From contig NZ_AKIZ01000014.1 in NCBI RefSeq assembly GCF_000282595.1, positions 248,001 to 312,000 of the forward strand: a DNA stretch of 64,000 bases, written 5' to 3'. The translations under genes were made by a program, and so were the position numbers. A model generated the notes under the pieces. That model worked only from the letters and a program-made list of their open reading frames with translations, had not been told where the DNA came from and searched no databases. The DNA is from Phyllobacterium sp. YR531. Lineage in GTDB: Bacteria > Pseudomonadota > Alphaproteobacteria > Rhizobiales > Rhizobiaceae. Positions 27,210-44,204 of the stretch are shown here, piece after piece (position 1 is the stretch's first letter; every line of letters begins with the position of its first letter).

Positions 27210-27353
27210 TCAGTTGCAGGCCGACCAGGCGATCTGGCGGATATCTGCGCGAGAAATTCCAAGGTCAGCAAGGTTGCGATCGCTGCAAAGACGCAGCTCG
27301 TGGAGGTTCTGGCGATATTGGCGGTATTTCTGAATGCGATTGCGAAGGCTCAT
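27210..27353 (-). CDS. DUF1127 domain small protein
   Basis: This 47-residue basic protein has the DUF1127 core (SDRNLADLGISRADIRQIAW), which in alphaproteobacteria often binds RNA or affects phosphate, carbon and stress metabolism. Arg and Lys are enriched and there is a single Cys near the end. An AAGGGG site precedes the ATG at 27353. A longer frame upstream exists but has poor start context. A perfect TGCAATG-CAC-CATTGCA palindrome lies in the upstream region, between this gene and the divergent amidase. Confidence 0.85.
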   Translation of the reverse strand: MSLRNRIQKYRQYRQNLHELRLCSDRNLADLGISRADIRQIAWSACN

Positions 27354-27431
27354 GGCTCTTACCCCTTTTATTGTTGGCCCTCCCTGCAACAAAGCTTGCT
27401 TGAAATAATATCGATTTAAAACTGCGAATGT

Positions 27432-27448
27432 TGCAATGCACCATTGCA
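27432..27448. promoter_or_regulatory. Palindromic operator candidate between DUF1127 and amidase genes
   Basis: TGCAATG-CAC-CATTGCA is a perfect seven-base inverted repeat with a three-base centre. It is 79 bases from the DUF1127 start and 56 bases from the amidase start, so it may control either or both. Confidence 0.45.
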
Positions 27449-27503
27449 CTGTCTGCATGGCAAGCATCGGGCTTTAATCGCAAATGTCTTCGCGCTATAG
27501 AAG

Positions 27504-29252: not shown

Positions 29253-30524
29253 ATGAACGACAAGGAATTTTTCACGCAACTGTTTCGCGCAGCTGTTGAT
29301 GCTGCAGACCCTGAGCGGACAATTGCCTCCCATCTACCGCCAAAGCCGAAAGGCCGGACAATCATTATCGGCGCTGGCAAAGGTTCAGCACAAATGGCGA
29401 GTGCATTTGAAAAGGCATGGGCGAGCAAATATCCGGGCAGTCCCATCGAAGGACTTGTCGTGACCCGTTACGGGTTTGGCGCTCCTTGTAAACATATAGA
29501 GATTATTGAAGCGTCTCACCCCGTGCCCGATGCAGCGGGCCTCGTTGCTTCGAAACGCCTTTTGGAAACCGTGTCGAATTTGACAGCGGATGATCTCGTC
29601 ATTGCCCTCATATCAGGGGGCGGGTCTGCCTTGCTGCCATCGCCGCCGGAAGGCATGACCATTGAGGATGAAATCGCCGTCAACAAGACTTTGCTCGCTT
29701 CGGGAGCGCCGATCTCCGCCATGAATGCCGTGCGCAAGCACCTCTCCACCATTAAAGGCGGGCGTCTTGCTACTGCGGCACACCCCGCTCGTGTTTACTC
29801 GTTAATTGTATCGGATATCCCGGGCGACAATCCGGCCTTTGTAGCGTCCGGTCCCACAGTTCCCGACGAGACAATGCGTGAGGAAGCCTTGGCTATTGTT
29901 GACCGCTATGGATTTGATCTGCCGCAAAGTGCGCTGGCGCATCTCCGGTCTGCTGCGGCAGATGCCCCGAAGCCCCGCGATGCTGTATTCAACGATCATG
30001 AGTATCACGTGATTGCATCGGCAGGCGTTTCGCTGGAGGCTGCTGCCAGAACGGCGCGGGCCAACGGGATCGAGGCTGTCATCCTGTCTGATGCAATAGA
30101 GGGCGAAGCACGTGAGGTTGCCCATGTTCATGCTGCATTGGCGAAGCACGTACTTGCAAAGAATCAACCATTCGCAAAGCCCGTTGTCATTCTTTCCGGT
30201 GGTGAAACCACGGTTACCGTACGGGGAAAGGGCAAGGGCGGGCGCAATACCGAATTTCTGCTCTCCCTCGCAATGGATATCGATGGTGCGAACGGCATCA
30301 GTGCGTTTGCCGCCGATACGGATGGTATAGACGGGTCCGAGGATAATGCAGGTGCTTTCGCTGATAGCACCAGTGTGGCACGTCTGTTGGCAAAGGGGCA
30401 CGATGCATCGACCTATCTGAATGGCAATAATGCCTGGACGGCATTCAATGCGATAGACGATTTATTTGTGCCGGGGCCAACTGGAACAAACGTCAATGAT
30501 TTGCGGGCAATTCTCGTGCGTTGA
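29253..30524 (+). CDS. ttuD: Glycerate 2-kinase / hydroxypyruvate reductase (MOFRL domain)
   Basis: This 423-residue enzyme phosphorylates glycerate to 2-phosphoglycerate, allowing glycerate, tartronate semialdehyde or serine-derived carbon to enter glycolysis. The DUF4147 N-terminal part has IIIGAGKGSAQMASAFE and the ALISGGGSALLPSPP loop, and the C-terminal MOFRL domain has VILSGGETTVTVRGKGKGG followed by DTDGIDGSEDNAGAF. The ATG at 29253, nine bases after a GGAAG site, is better than the TTG overlapping the previous stop. The Dabb gene before it is likely co-transcribed. Confidence 0.9.
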   Translation: MNDKEFFTQLFRAAVDAADPERTIASHLPPKPKGRTIIIGAGKGSAQMASAFEKAWASKYPGSPIEGLVVTRYGFGAPCKHIEIIEASHPVPDAAGLVASKRLLETVSNLTADDLVIALISGGGSALLPSPPEGMTIEDEIAVNKTLLASGAPISAMNAVRKHLSTIKGGRLATAAHPARVYSLIVSDIPGDNPAFVASGPTVPDETMREEALAIVDRYGFDLPQSALAHLRSAAADAPKPRDAVFNDHEYHVIASAGVSLEAAARTARANGIEAVILSDAIEGEAREVAHVHAALAKHVLAKNQPFAKPVVILSGGETTVTVRGKGKGGRNTEFLLSLAMDIDGANGISAFAADTDGIDGSEDNAGAFADSTSVARLLAKGHDASTYLNGNNAWTAFNAIDDLFVPGPTGTNVNDLRAILVR

Positions 30525-30625
30525 CGCGCTATCGCCATTATTGGATGGTCAACCGCTAGCATTATGCGTCGTGTTTGATTTGAAGTCGGCGCTATGAAAT
30601 GGCGTTTCATGCAAAGGAAAGTTGA

Positions 30626-30838
30626 ATGCGAGCTGCACCTACCTTGATTATCCTGTCGGCGATCCTTGTTGCCGGTTGCACGACCAGCCCGACAAGCAAT
30701 GTTCCCGCTAACTCGCCGGTCAAGGATTTTTCCTTCGTACCGCCGCCCAAATCTCTTACCGAGCGCGCAAAGCCGGAGAAAAAGTTGACGCTTGAGGAAA
30801 GCGTTGCACGCCGCAAAGTGGAAACCGGGAAACAGTAG
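30626..30838 (+). CDS. Small lipoprotein, unknown function
   Basis: The 70-residue precursor has a typical lipoprotein signal: basic N-terminus, hydrophobic IILSAILV and a lipobox (LVAGC), giving a mature peptide of about 53 residues. That peptide carries a Pro/Ser/Thr-rich linker and a charged C-terminal helix. It will be acylated on Cys and held in the inner or outer membrane. It lies 101 bases after the glycerate kinase gene and has an AAGGAAAG ribosome site. No specific family is recognised. Confidence 0.75.
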   Translation: MRAAPTLIILSAILVAGCTTSPTSNVPANSPVKDFSFVPPPKSLTERAKPEKKLTLEESVARRKVETGKQ

Positions 30839-30935
30839 TCGGTTTATTCGGCCTTTGCCGTTTACCTTATTTAATGCCGTTTCATTCCGGAAGGATTGAA
30901 GCGGTATTTTCTTTTCTGCGCAAAAAAGGGGGGCT

Positions 30936-31062
30936 GAAACAACAAAACCCACCGCGGGAGGAGGTGCGGTGGGTTTCGTTGGTTATGGAGGGTCTTCTGG
31001 GAGGAGAAGAGACCGTCCGTTTCGACAGGGTCGGGAGGAGGTGACGCTGTCGAAAATTCCTG
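30936..31062 (-). ncRNA. Three-hairpin anti-Shine-Dalgarno small RNA (alpha-r14/NfeR1-like)
   Basis: Read on the minus strand, about 125 bases fold into three consecutive hairpins. Hairpin 1 (31020-31055) has stem TTTCGACAG/CTGTCGAAA; hairpin 2 (30991-31014) has GGTCTCTTCT/AGAAGACC, where two bases bulge; hairpin 3 (30945-30976) has AAACCCACCGC/GCGGTGGGTTT and is followed by TTTGTTGTTTC, a Rho-independent terminator. The loop of every hairpin exposes CCTCC (CCTCCTCCC in hairpins 1 and 3), the anti-Shine-Dalgarno sequence of 16S rRNA. This is the architecture of the rhizobial alpha-r14 family (NfeR1 in Sinorhizobium). A TATCTT box at 31068-31073 could be the -10 element, placing the 5' end near 31060. 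The exact ends are estimates. Confidence 0.82.
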
Positions 31063-31103
31063 ATTTGAAGATAACTCAATTGCCGTGATTTAATACAGAC
31101 AAT

Positions 31104-31148
31104 ATTGCATAGCAGCATTGCATTTGGTGCATTGCAGCATTTTGCTGC
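31104..31148. promoter_or_regulatory. ATTGCA repeat array upstream of the sRNA
   Basis: Three ATTGCA copies at 31104-31109, 31117-31122 and 31131-31136 are spaced by 13 and 14 bases. They are followed by a GCAGCA-TTTT-GCTGC inverted repeat to 31148. The array lies 40 to 80 bases upstream of the likely sRNA start on the minus strand and about 150 bases upstream of the secreted protein gene on the plus strand. An activator-type site is possible. Confidence 0.4.
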
Positions 31149-31293
31149 TGACTTTTATGCCTACTCAGCCAATCACAGCCAGTTGAACAGTCTTACGGAA
31201 CACAAACAGGTTCACATCGTTTATAATGCATTAACAAAGCTAACAACGGCGAAGCCGCCGCGCTTTAAATGTATGGACTGGAAAGGGCGTATC

Positions 31294-31653
31294 ATGCACT
31301 TTTTGAGATCATCAGTGGTTATGGCAACAGTAGCCTTTCTCGCATTCACCCCGATGACGGCCAGCCATGCGTTCAGCATAAAAGGGCAGGTTGAAACCGA
31401 AAGTGAAGGCGGCGATATCAACAATAAGAAGTTCCAGAAGGCTGCGGTATTGGAAGCCAAAGCCTATATTTGTGGTACTGGTACAGAAGCCAGTGAAGCA
31501 GCAATGAGGGCAGGAATGGCTGAAACCGGCTTGCCTGAGGACATTGCTATCGAGGTCGTTTCTGACCTTGCTTCGGGCATTATCGATCAGGCAACACGGA
31601 CCGGTTCAAAAAAGATGTGTGGTAAACCTGAAATCCAGATGTCGAGCTTTTAG
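31294..31653 (+). CDS. Secreted protein, unknown function
   Basis: This 119-residue precursor has a clear Sec signal peptide (MATVAFLAFTPMTASHAFS, likely cleaved after SHA). The mature part is acidic, with two Cys residues well apart (YICGTG and KKMCGKP) that could form a disulfide and a helical centre. No domain is recognised. The ATG at 31294 has an AAAGGG site and opens the hydrophobic core; an earlier in-frame ATG would add 63 residues without a signal. It sits next to the anti-SD small RNA on the other strand. Confidence 0.65.
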   Translation: MHFLRSSVVMATVAFLAFTPMTASHAFSIKGQVETESEGGDINNKKFQKAAVLEAKAYICGTGTEASEAAMRAGMAETGLPEDIAIEVVSDLASGIIDQATRTGSKKMCGKPEIQMSSF

Positions 31654-31969
31654 ATGTGAAAAGTAAGTTATTTAACAAAGTCGCGGGGTTACAGTTTATA
31701 ATATAAAATTTTAAATTAATTTTAGTCTAAACTGACACCATTTAAAGGTCAGGCCGAATAAATTTGATCTTTTCAAAATGTTATTTTTCGTATTAGTGTC
31801 CCGCTGGAAAACACCATCTGATTCAATTTGTAAGAATTACAATGAATGACAGGTCCACGACAGTATCGCCGGATCAATTGTCGTGCTGACAGCTTGAAGC
31901 GTGCCTACGCTGCAGCTGGGAGTTGAATGGAGCGTTGTAACGTTCTTTGGGGTTGTGGGAGAGGAATGG
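31654..31969. other. AT-rich intergenic stretch
   Basis: Here 316 bases have no gene. The first 150 bases are AT-rich with no visible promoter signature. The only structured element is a CACGACA/TGTCGTG inverted repeat at 31856-31885 with a 16-base loop, shortly before the next ORF. No RNA gene, repeat copy or broken gene was recognised. Confidence 0.5.
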
Positions 31970-42020: not shown

Positions 42021-44204
42021 ATGACTAATCGTGAAAACGAGACGGTAAAGCGGCGCTCGCTTCTCTCGTTTGCCAGCGAGCAGAGCCCGGAGGCGCAGAC
42101 ACCGCGTGCTGAGGCTGCGGCGCCTGTTCGCAACGAAACCAGTCTCGACCATTATCATAGAATGCGCAATTTGCGCCTTGCTGCAGAATCCGAGCCTACT
42201 CAATCACCGCCGAATGATATTCCCGAAGAGTTGGGTAATGAAGCGGTCGAACAGGATGCGATAAATCGTATGCGCGCGGATATGGCTGCGATCAAGGCCG
42301 AGCTTAATCGCCGCGTTGATGCCGCCGAGAATGAAGTCCGCATGCCCGCAGCGACCTATAACGAGCTGCTGCGGGAGAAAGAACCAGCAGCACCCCCGGT
42401 CTTTATCCCCGCAACTGCCGAACCGGCAACTCCAGAGCCAGAGATGTTTAAAAAGCCAGTGTCTGCTCCATCGCAGCGGCCGCAACAGGTCCGGGCAAAG
42501 CCTCAAAAAGATGACTATCAGGATGATGAGTGGAAGCCTCTTGTCGATCCCCGTATTGTCATAAACAGGGTCGGCCGATCCAAATCGTTGATCGTAGCCA
42601 CCACGATTATCGGAGCATTGCTGGGTGTTGGTTATGCCATGACACTGCCCAAGCTCTATTCCTCGACTGTGGAAGTGCTGGTTGACCCGCGAGATCTCAA
42701 GATCGTCGACAAGGAAATTTCATCGACCCAGCTTCCTCTGGATGCTTCGCTCGCCGTCGCTGAAAGCCAACTGCGGATTATCCAGTCCAGCAGTGTCTTG
42801 ACCAAAGTCATTGAAAGAGCCGGACTCGCCAAAGATCCGGAATTCAACGGTGACCTGAGAGAGCGTGGATTGTTTGCGACGATACGCGAACTGTTTTCCA
42901 CCGACAGCACGCCGGACGCCACAACGCGCGAGACATTGCTGCTACGCAATCTTTACGAACACCTGAATGTCGAGCGCAGCACGAAGAACTACATTTTTAA
43001 CATTACTGTTGATTCGCGCGATCCGGAGAAGTCGGCGCTCATCGCCAATACGGTGTCGGATGTGTTCCGCGAAGAGCAGGGCAATATTCAGTCTGATACC
43101 GCAAGACAGGCCACGGAGGTGCTGACCGCCCGGTTGAACGATTTGCGTGCAGGCGTTGAGGTGGCTGAAAATGCCGTCCAGAAATTCAAGGCCGAGAATG
43201 ATCTTGTGGACGTTCAGGGCCGGCTTATCAGCGATGACGAAATTACGCGCACCAATGATGAATTGACTGCAGCCCGCAACCAGACAATCCGCCTGAATGC
43301 ACAGGCAGCATCAATCCGCAGCACTTCCGTCGAGGGTGTTCTTGGCAATACTTTGCCGGAAGAATTCCGCTCGGGCGTCATCGTCGCTCTGCGATCGCAA
43401 TATGGTGCCTTGAAACAGCAGGCAGATGGCCTTGCAACAAAGCTTGGACCTCGCCACCCGCAGCTCATTCAGGCGCAATCGCAAGTCAGCGGCATTCGTA
43501 CTGAAATCCGCAACGAACTGCAGCGCATCGCCTCATCTGTACAAACGGAACTTAAACGGTCTCAGCAGCAGGAACAGGAGTTGATGGCGCGCCTGAACCA
43601 GTTGAAGGCACGCACGGCTACCAACAATGAAGACATGGTCAAGTTGCGGGAGCTTGATCGCGAGGTCGCCGCCAAGCGTGCGGTCTATGAAGCATTTCTC
43701 CTGCGCGCCAAGGAAACCGGTGAGCTTGAAAGTGTAAACACCACCAATATAAGGGTCATTTCCCCGGCTCGTCCGGCGCTGGAAAGCACTGGCGGATCGC
43801 GCAAACTTGTCGCTATAGCTGGCTTGCTCGGTGGGCTTTTTGCCGGGCTTGGCATCGCCATCCTGCTGGGAATGCTTGAAAGTTTTCGCGCGGGTAATCG
43901 TGCTGGAGATTCTCCCTCAGATCCGGCACCTCTCGGCAATGGCAGGCGCACGAAACCCGTTACTCAGGAAGCCTCCGTGCCGGCTGCCTCACGCCTTGGT
44001 GCCGCCATCAAGCGGGCGCGCAGTGGCAGTGTTTCCGCTGAGTTCGCAGAGGATGAGACGGCTGTGGCTGAGTTTCTCTATGCCTATGCCGACGCGCATG
44101 TTGCGCCACGCCAGCACGACAATTCCAATATTGACGACATGCTGGATGACATTGCAGAACTACGAGAAATACTCCGCGAAGAAGCAGAACGGCAGACCGG
44201 TTGA
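42021..44204 (+). CDS. Wzz/GumC-like polysaccharide co-polymerase with long cytoplasmic N-terminus
   Basis: The 727-residue protein has a soluble N-terminal region of about 180 residues (Glu/Pro/Gln/Lys-rich). It is followed by a first membrane segment (SLIVATTIIGALLGVGYAMTL), a Wzz domain (LYSSTVEVLVDPRDLKIVDKE), long coiled coils with GNVR-type spacing (RHPQLIQAQSQVSGI), a second membrane segment (LVAIAGLLGGLFAGLGIAILLG), and a disordered acidic tail. No Walker-type tyrosine kinase domain is present. Such proteins set chain length and form an export channel with outer-membrane proteins. The start at 42021 is an ATG with a GTTGGAG site upstream. It follows the HigBA pair. Confidence 0.85.
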   Translation: MTNRENETVKRRSLLSFASEQSPEAQTPRAEAAAPVRNETSLDHYHRMRNLRLAAESEPTQSPPNDIPEELGNEAVEQDAINRMRADMAAIKAELNRRVDAAENEVRMPAATYNELLREKEPAAPPVFIPATAEPATPEPEMFKKPVSAPSQRPQQVRAKPQKDDYQDDEWKPLVDPRIVINRVGRSKSLIVATTIIGALLGVGYAMTLPKLYSSTVEVLVDPRDLKIVDKEISSTQLPLDASLAVAESQLRIIQSSSVLTKVIERAGLAKDPEFNGDLRERGLFATIRELFSTDSTPDATTRETLLLRNLYEHLNVERSTKNYIFNITVDSRDPEKSALIANTVSDVFREEQGNIQSDTARQATEVLTARLNDLRAGVEVAENAVQKFKAENDLVDVQGRLISDDEITRTNDELTAARNQTIRLNAQAASIRSTSVEGVLGNTLPEEFRSGVIVALRSQYGALKQQADGLATKLGPRHPQLIQAQSQVSGIRTEIRNELQRIASSVQTELKRSQQQEQELMARLNQLKARTATNNEDMVKLRELDREVAAKRAVYEAFLLRAKETGELESVNTTNIRVISPARPALESTGGSRKLVAIAGLLGGLFAGLGIAILLGMLESFRAGNRAGDSPSDPAPLGNGRRTKPVTQEASVPAASRLGAAIKRARSGSVSAEFAEDETAVAEFLYAYADAHVAPRQHDNSNIDDMLDDIAELREILREEAERQTG

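Follow-up and report, generated by a model that had tools for sequence, protein, structure and literature searches.

Small RNAs of the alpha-r14/NfeR1 ('cuckoo') kind have been in print since 2011, and the sequence CCTCC is the same as that of the 3' end of 16S rRNA. Members are described as Hfq-independent, stress-induced transcripts of about 123 nt whose last hairpin is a Rho-independent terminator. Description of the family already includes its loops and its occurrence in Rhizobiaceae, Brucellaceae, and Phyllobacteriaceae (PMC3927594). NfeR1 of S. meliloti acts at the translation start of ntrB and of two ABC-transporter mRNAs, which it silences using three redundant anti-Shine-Dalgarno (aSD) loops, and is itself activated by LsrB through a TGCA-N6-GCAT box at -72 to -57 (PMC10746234). 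The lsrB gene lies beside AbcR in both A. tumefaciens and S. meliloti (PMC7486931), and VtlR, whose Brucella motif is CAATGCAGCCATGCA, controls DUF1127 genes and AbcR2 (PMC12595884). A neighbourhood of DUF1127 and a CcsR-like RNA ('CIN1') is attributed in PMC10253847 to a 2015 paper.

The locus described here lies on the minus strand of the window, that is, the whole 64-kb stretch of Phyllobacterium sp. YR531 DNA that was analysed, whose positions are used throughout unless another contig is named. An initial annotation, made from the letters of the sequence, had assigned it to the alpha-r14/NfeR1 family and had placed it in a Brucellaceae-type background. To assess the assignment by the covariance-model search that this annotation had itself proposed, we searched the whole 64-kb window with the Rfam ar14 model (RF02344). 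This revealed a match on the minus strand at 30940-31059 with a score of 81.6 bits (E 3.8e-13), against a gathering cut-off of 58.8 bits, in which positions 1-123 of the 123 model positions are covered. The family assignment was thus correct, and the background was not, the genus being Phyllobacterium. The RNA is a clear additional Phyllobacterium member of the already described ar14 family, and a literature search found no paper combining 'anti-Shine-Dalgarno', 'small RNA', and 'Phyllobacterium'. The features of the locus are collected in Table 1.

Table 1. Coordinates of the RNA gene, its hairpins, its promoter region, and genes of the window discussed in the text.
Feature	Position	Strand	Remarks
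ar14-type sRNA gene	30936..31061	minus	Rfam match 30940-31059; 5' end probably near 31059-31061
Hairpin 1	31020..31055	minus	loop motif CCUCCUCCC at 31033-31041, nine bases all unpaired
Hairpin 2	30987..31018	minus	loop motif UCUCCUCCC at 30999-31007, CCUCCC unpaired
Hairpin 3	30940..30981	minus	16 pairs; CCUCCUCCC at 30956-30964; likely terminator, U-rich 3' side
-10-like TATCTT	31068..31073	minus	by position and alignment; TATTCT in most orthologues
Conserved promoter element, proposed LsrB/VtlR operator	31093..31142	minus	by identity and likeness to published motifs
CAATGCTGCTATGCA in promoter element	31106-31120	minus	second similar copy at 31128-31142
TGCA-N6-GCA in promoter element	31119-31131	minus	about -71 to -59
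Divergent neighbour, short protein with signal-like start (by eye)	31294..31653	plus	without Pfam or NCBIfam match
Neighbour, small lipoprotein-like ORF (by eye)	30626..30838	plus	tblastn match in 19/19 genus relatives
DUF1127 small-protein gene	27210..27353	minus	start codon 27353 by eye; weak promoter-element match at 27427-27462

The 127-nt stretch 30936-31062 folds into three hairpins with a minimum free energy of -54 kcal/mol and a z-score of -8.69, and none of 200 shuffles was equally stable, in agreement with the three successive minus-strand hairpins that had been proposed. The accompanying claim that each loop exposes a CCTCC-type sequence also stands. In loops 1 and 3, which carry the full motif, every motif base is unpaired at probability 1.0. 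As the first three bases of loop 2 (TCTCCTCCC, 31007-30999) are only 19-26% unpaired and the last six 99-100%, this loop, which has eight of the nine letters of the family motif and about six of nine unpaired, exposes a shortened CCTCCC. The exact motif CCTCCTCCC occurs twice in the 64-kb window, in loop 1 (31041-31033) and loop 3 (30964-30956), where 0.33 occurrences are expected and 6 of 100 shuffles reach two. For comparison we used 33 other ar14 sequences, comprising four paralogues from the same genome and 29 loci from other genera, the latter being those given for the best-scoring of 60 other family genomes and therefore leaning to strong members. All 33 fold into three hairpins and 27 hold three exact copies of CCTCCTCCC; as the other six do not, departures from three exact loop motifs occur within the family. 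A pattern for the 16S 3' end was found in none of six genomes, probably because rRNA is missing from or masked in those sequences. At the 3' end, the T-run claimed for the last hairpin is present, with TTTTGTTGTTT following the GC-rich part of stem 3, but most of this run pairs with CAACGAAA in the predicted fold. Hairpin 3, whose loop of 10 exceeds the limit of 8 set in the terminator scan, is absent from the minus-strand results of that scan and is listed on the plus strand.

A DNA search of 20 genomes of the genus, our own included, located the RNA in every one. Across the 19 orthologues, mean identity to the window is 95.3% (91.3-100) for the RNA, 90.5% for the promoter element at 31093-31140, and 76.5% for the core promoter; it falls to 47.4% farther upstream, beyond the promoter element, and to 38.9% past the 3' side of the RNA. 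The initial annotation had held that stems broken in close relatives would speak against its reading; in the 20-row orthologue alignment, which has 17 distinct rows, the stems are instead kept, with 98.9% of 662 pair cells paired. Three pairs, one per hairpin, carry both-side changes, which are seen in 1, 4, and 1 rows. Neither the paired-cell value nor the value for both-side changes was reached in any of 500 shuffles, and structures slid along the alignment pair 40-54% with at most one both-side-changed pair. In 5 of the 17 rows pair 47-74 of hairpin 2 is broken, each of two basal pairs of hairpin 3 is broken in a single row, and further pair types are not above shuffles (364/500). The nine letters of loop 2 are invariant in all 20 orthologues.

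The same genome holds five ar14 copies over the cut-off, and one further match, weak at 29.4 bits, corresponds to an AbcR/ar15 gene. With E limited to 0.001, each of the 20 genomes of the genus has between four and seven ar14 matches. Among 61 genomes drawn from the family, our own included, 60 have a match and 56 one over the cut-off. None of 14 control genomes has a match at the same limit; at a loose E of 10, nine of the 14 do, none of them over the cut-off. Two of the five copies lie directly behind same-strand DUF1127 genes (on C18 and C37), and of the nine DUF1127 genes in this genome the other seven adjoin no ar14 match. Judged from their upstream sequence, the RNA at 30940-31059 and the copy at C16:462795 appear to stand alone. 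The copy at C14:326680 (L005 1029-1619) directly follows a phasin gene and precedes a tRNA gene, an arrangement that suggests a 3'-UTR-derived member. A plasmid search in distant mode (E up to 1e-5) returned one record, the large plasmid of Mesorhizobium sp. AR10, in which a segment without an annotated feature (L121 2001-2106) is 73% identical to the RNA.

The adjoining secreted-protein gene that had been pointed out is indeed kept in 19 of 19 relatives. In tblastn searches the same was found for glycerate kinase, the small lipoprotein, and a 90-aa protein, with an LLM oxidoreductase nearby in 18 of the 19, this conserved neighbourhood lying within stretches of 3.2-3.5 kb. A contig scan of genomes placed the protein encoded at 31294-31653 at 19 loci, 17 from Phyllobacterium and two from 'Rhizobiales bacterium', and its cysteines C60 and C109 are invariant in 13 aligned sequences. 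Second copies of this gene are present on smaller contigs in Phyllobacterium bourgognense and Ca. P. onerii (L086, L088), with no ar14 match beside them at E up to 0.05. As the other neighbours are equally kept and the second copies lack an ar14, a functional tie between the RNA and its secreted neighbour is unsupported.

Upstream of the RNA, the -10-like TATCTT box noted earlier is in its place (Table 1), and a promoter scan found no consensus sigma-70 promoter for the RNA. The initial annotation had also described an upstream repeat array. The repeat is real, with two 14-nt copies that are 93% alike and 22 nt apart, but the region is best read as a putative, conserved LsrB/VtlR-type operator like that of NfeR1. 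The window box, TGCA-N6-GCAA, has seven of the eight letters of the LsrB box TGCA-N6-GCAT and fits T-N11-A, and TGCA-N6-GCA occurs at the equivalent place in all 20 orthologues, followed by T in 10 and by A in 10 (window included). The published VtlR motif and 31120-31106 agree in 13 of 15 letters, which is the independent figure for this motif; as the pattern CAATGCWGCYATGCA and its 13-letter core blend the published motif with letters from the window, the exact match of CAATGCWGCYATGCA at the locus is not independent. With up to one mismatch allowed, the 13-letter core has 47 matches versus 7 for a reversed control, and single core matches therefore mean little. The genome encodes an LsrB-type LysR protein of 298 aa with LysR HTH and substrate domains, whose gene adjoins an ar15/AbcR gene; the protein scores 484 bits against 9HH1, an entry deposited as LsrB of A. 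tumefaciens. By its letters and position, the promoter resembles a known LsrB/VtlR control site.

To examine where else this element occurs, we used R1, a sequence-only model of the promoter element built from the 20 orthologues; the RNA's own site is in the training set and the other matched promoters are absent from it. R1 gave nine matches in the genome at E up to 10, namely the RNA site (E 2.6e-16), six at four other promoters, and two elsewhere. The four other promoters are those of two DUF1127 genes and two AbcR RNAs. The DUF1127-ar14 pair on C18 is preceded by two matches (E 0.0015 and 4.4), and the AbcR gene on C13 by a single site that is matched on both strands (E 0.2 and 7.3); the C16 AbcR gene (E 0.81) and the DUF1127 gene in the window (27462-27427; E 0.87) each have one match upstream. 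The two matches away from such genes have E values of 0.46 and 0.78. One of these lies inside a long ORF (window 42934-42951); the other, at C16:133206-133233 (L104 1501-1528), is about 0.4 kb upstream of an ORF that by eye resembles an ABC binding protein, and may be due to chance. R1 is strong at the RNA site and the C18 site only, and the remaining matches, at E 0.2-7.3, are individually weak; the identity of the genes that they precede speaks for the weak sites. Of the nine DUF1127 genes in the genome, seven have no R1 match, the one on C37 with an ar14 behind it among them.

A 76-nt promoter profile scored above 15 bits at 11 of the 29 ar14 loci from other genera. Using a simple regular expression, a DUF1127-like motif was found in the 260 nt preceding the RNA at 10 of these 11 loci, and at 14 of the 29 overall; at the eleventh profile-positive locus (L010) the element lies directly before the RNA. 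In the genus, 10 of 10 paralogue loci (L056-L065) combine the element (9.8-19.6 bits) with a DUF1127-like ORF, and the ar14 loci L003, L004, and L005 of our own genome have no match to the 76-nt profile. At the DUF1127 gene in the window (L095) the profile scores 21.2 bits, and PF06568 scores 42.8 bits on the longer ORF at 27210-27467. This gene lies 3.6 kb from the sRNA, and its leader contains GGGAGGG, to which the loops are complementary.

We tentatively propose, as a possibility that we would not yet call probable, that one LsrB/VtlR-type operator drives stand-alone anti-SD RNAs, DUF1127-anti-SD operons, and certain lone DUF1127 and AbcR genes. The same circuit would cover Phyllobacterium and its relatives, and the RNA and the DUF1127 gene of the window, each preceded by such an element, may represent a DUF1127-ar14 operon that has been split, with protein and RNA co-induced to act together. 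A literature search found no paper naming both 'NfeR1' and 'DUF1127', and an operator common to ar14 RNAs and DUF1127 genes would go modestly beyond the published work surveyed. The weakness of most R1 scores, the DUF1127 genes without an R1 match, and the ar14 loci of our own genome without a profile match speak against a shared operator. One report gives no evidence of RNA binding by Salmonella YjiS, a DUF1127 protein, and describes Agrobacterium DUF1127 proteins as acting on PhoR (PMC12501420); DUF1127 proteins therefore need not bind RNA. If shared control is true, DUF1127 proteins as partners of anti-SD RNAs in Rhizobiales becomes a testable idea.

Taken together, we consider it very probable that the locus encodes a stand-alone, trans-acting alpha-r14 RNA that is activated by LsrB and masks ribosome-binding sites. 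The observations behind this proposal are the match to the family, the conserved three-hairpin fold, a promoter element that is conserved and resembles published operators, and the LsrB-type gene beside AbcR. Transcription, LsrB binding, target pairing, and repression are the steps that we infer. The LysR-type LsrB/VtlR orthologue would most likely bind the TGC-rich element about 35-80 nt upstream and switch the RNA on; the three hairpins would then present their aSD loops, two full and one shortened, and these would pair with the purine-rich ribosome-binding sites of several mRNAs, blocking translation. As the anatomy is that of NfeR1, the same action is likely, and by this analogy the Phyllobacterium RNA would probably silence mRNAs. 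Duplex energies were calculated for eight hand-picked starts without a background distribution, with ntrB placed by eye behind a dusB match; among these, the duplex at the ntrB start is weak (-4.0 to -7.9 kcal/mol), and stronger pairing is predicted for the DUF1127 leader of the window (-13.5 to -14.4 kcal/mol) and the proC start (-10.0 to -12.6 kcal/mol). We propose none of these starts as a target. With this RNA, a known riboregulator family gains a well-conserved member from Phyllobacterium, and the repeat array is explained as its likely operator.

Other readings of the locus were weighed against this proposal. The AbcR (ar15) and CcsR1 families likewise carry CU-rich aSD loops, and the CcsR1 model (RF02791) does score 21.5 bits here, yet this is far under its cut-off of 65.3; a search of 30400-31700 with the ar15 model (RF02345) gave nothing at E up to 1, and the two ar15 genes of the genome, scoring 77.6 and 68.9, lie elsewhere. 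Membership in either family was rejected on these model scores and has a negligible probability. Nor do we give any appreciable weight to a small protein or a mere intergenic terminator, despite the 78-aa minus-strand ORF at 30882-31118 and the score of hairpin 3 as a plus-strand terminator. Single-base deletions inside the RNA in orthologues L052 and L055 would shift any frame, on which ground the coding reading was rejected, and conservation extends over the promoter element and each of the three hairpins, ending where the RNA has its 3' end.

Two further readings accept the RNA gene and differ on what becomes of it. As only one of six NfeR1-type loci in S. meliloti was reliably detected by Northern blot under the conditions tested (PMC7143759), the Phyllobacterium copy, one of five and lacking a consensus promoter in the scan, could be a silent or nearly silent paralogue. 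We consider this very unlikely, as the RNA and its promoter element are far better conserved than their flanks in 19 relatives and the stems are compensated among orthologues. Alternatively, the RNA could be made but act by titration, either by mimicking the 16S tail and so tying up a ribosomal factor or an RNA-binding one, for example a DUF1127 protein, or as a sponge for SD-bearing fragments. This would suit the repetition of one motif in the loops and the variation of the stems among paralogues of the genome (also PMC3927594), the position of two of the five copies directly behind DUF1127 genes, and the involvement of the Rhodobacter DUF1127 protein CcaF1 in maturation of the CcsR RNAs (PMC10253847). 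However, a triple loop mutant in S. meliloti no longer silences ntrB (PMC10746234), and other DUF1127 proteins act via protein partners, with no evidence of RNA binding given for YjiS (PMC12501420), making titration unlikely. Masking of ribosome-binding sites by a trans-acting RNA is thus the reading that we retain.

Compared with S. meliloti NfeR1, the Phyllobacterium RNA has the same three hairpins, CCUCCUCCC loops, and full-length model match, and an LsrB-type element at about the published position. It differs in loop 2, which is UCUCCUCCC and partly paired, in the lack of strong pairing with the known target ntrB, and in its core promoter, where CTTAGAC-N17-CTATAT was not seen and a TATCTT-like -10 alone is present. 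Searched as written in the 100-nt upstream stretch, CTTAGAC-N17-CTATAT was matched at none of the 33 other ar14 loci; it is a feature of NfeR1 promoters and not of the RNA. SmelA075/SmelA099 and the 'cuckoo' RNAs, compared here in general anatomy, share three or four hairpins, CCUCCUCCC loops, and several copies per genome (PMC3927594). CcsR1 of Rhodobacter (RF02791) likewise has CCUCCUCCC loops and an association with DUF1127 genes (PMC10253847), but its model has two hairpins and the RNA is processed from the ccaF1 operon transcript. AbcR/ar15 is a separate Rfam family, present at two other loci of this Phyllobacterium genome, that shares the aSD motifs and, upstream of both ar15 genes here, a weak match to the promoter element.
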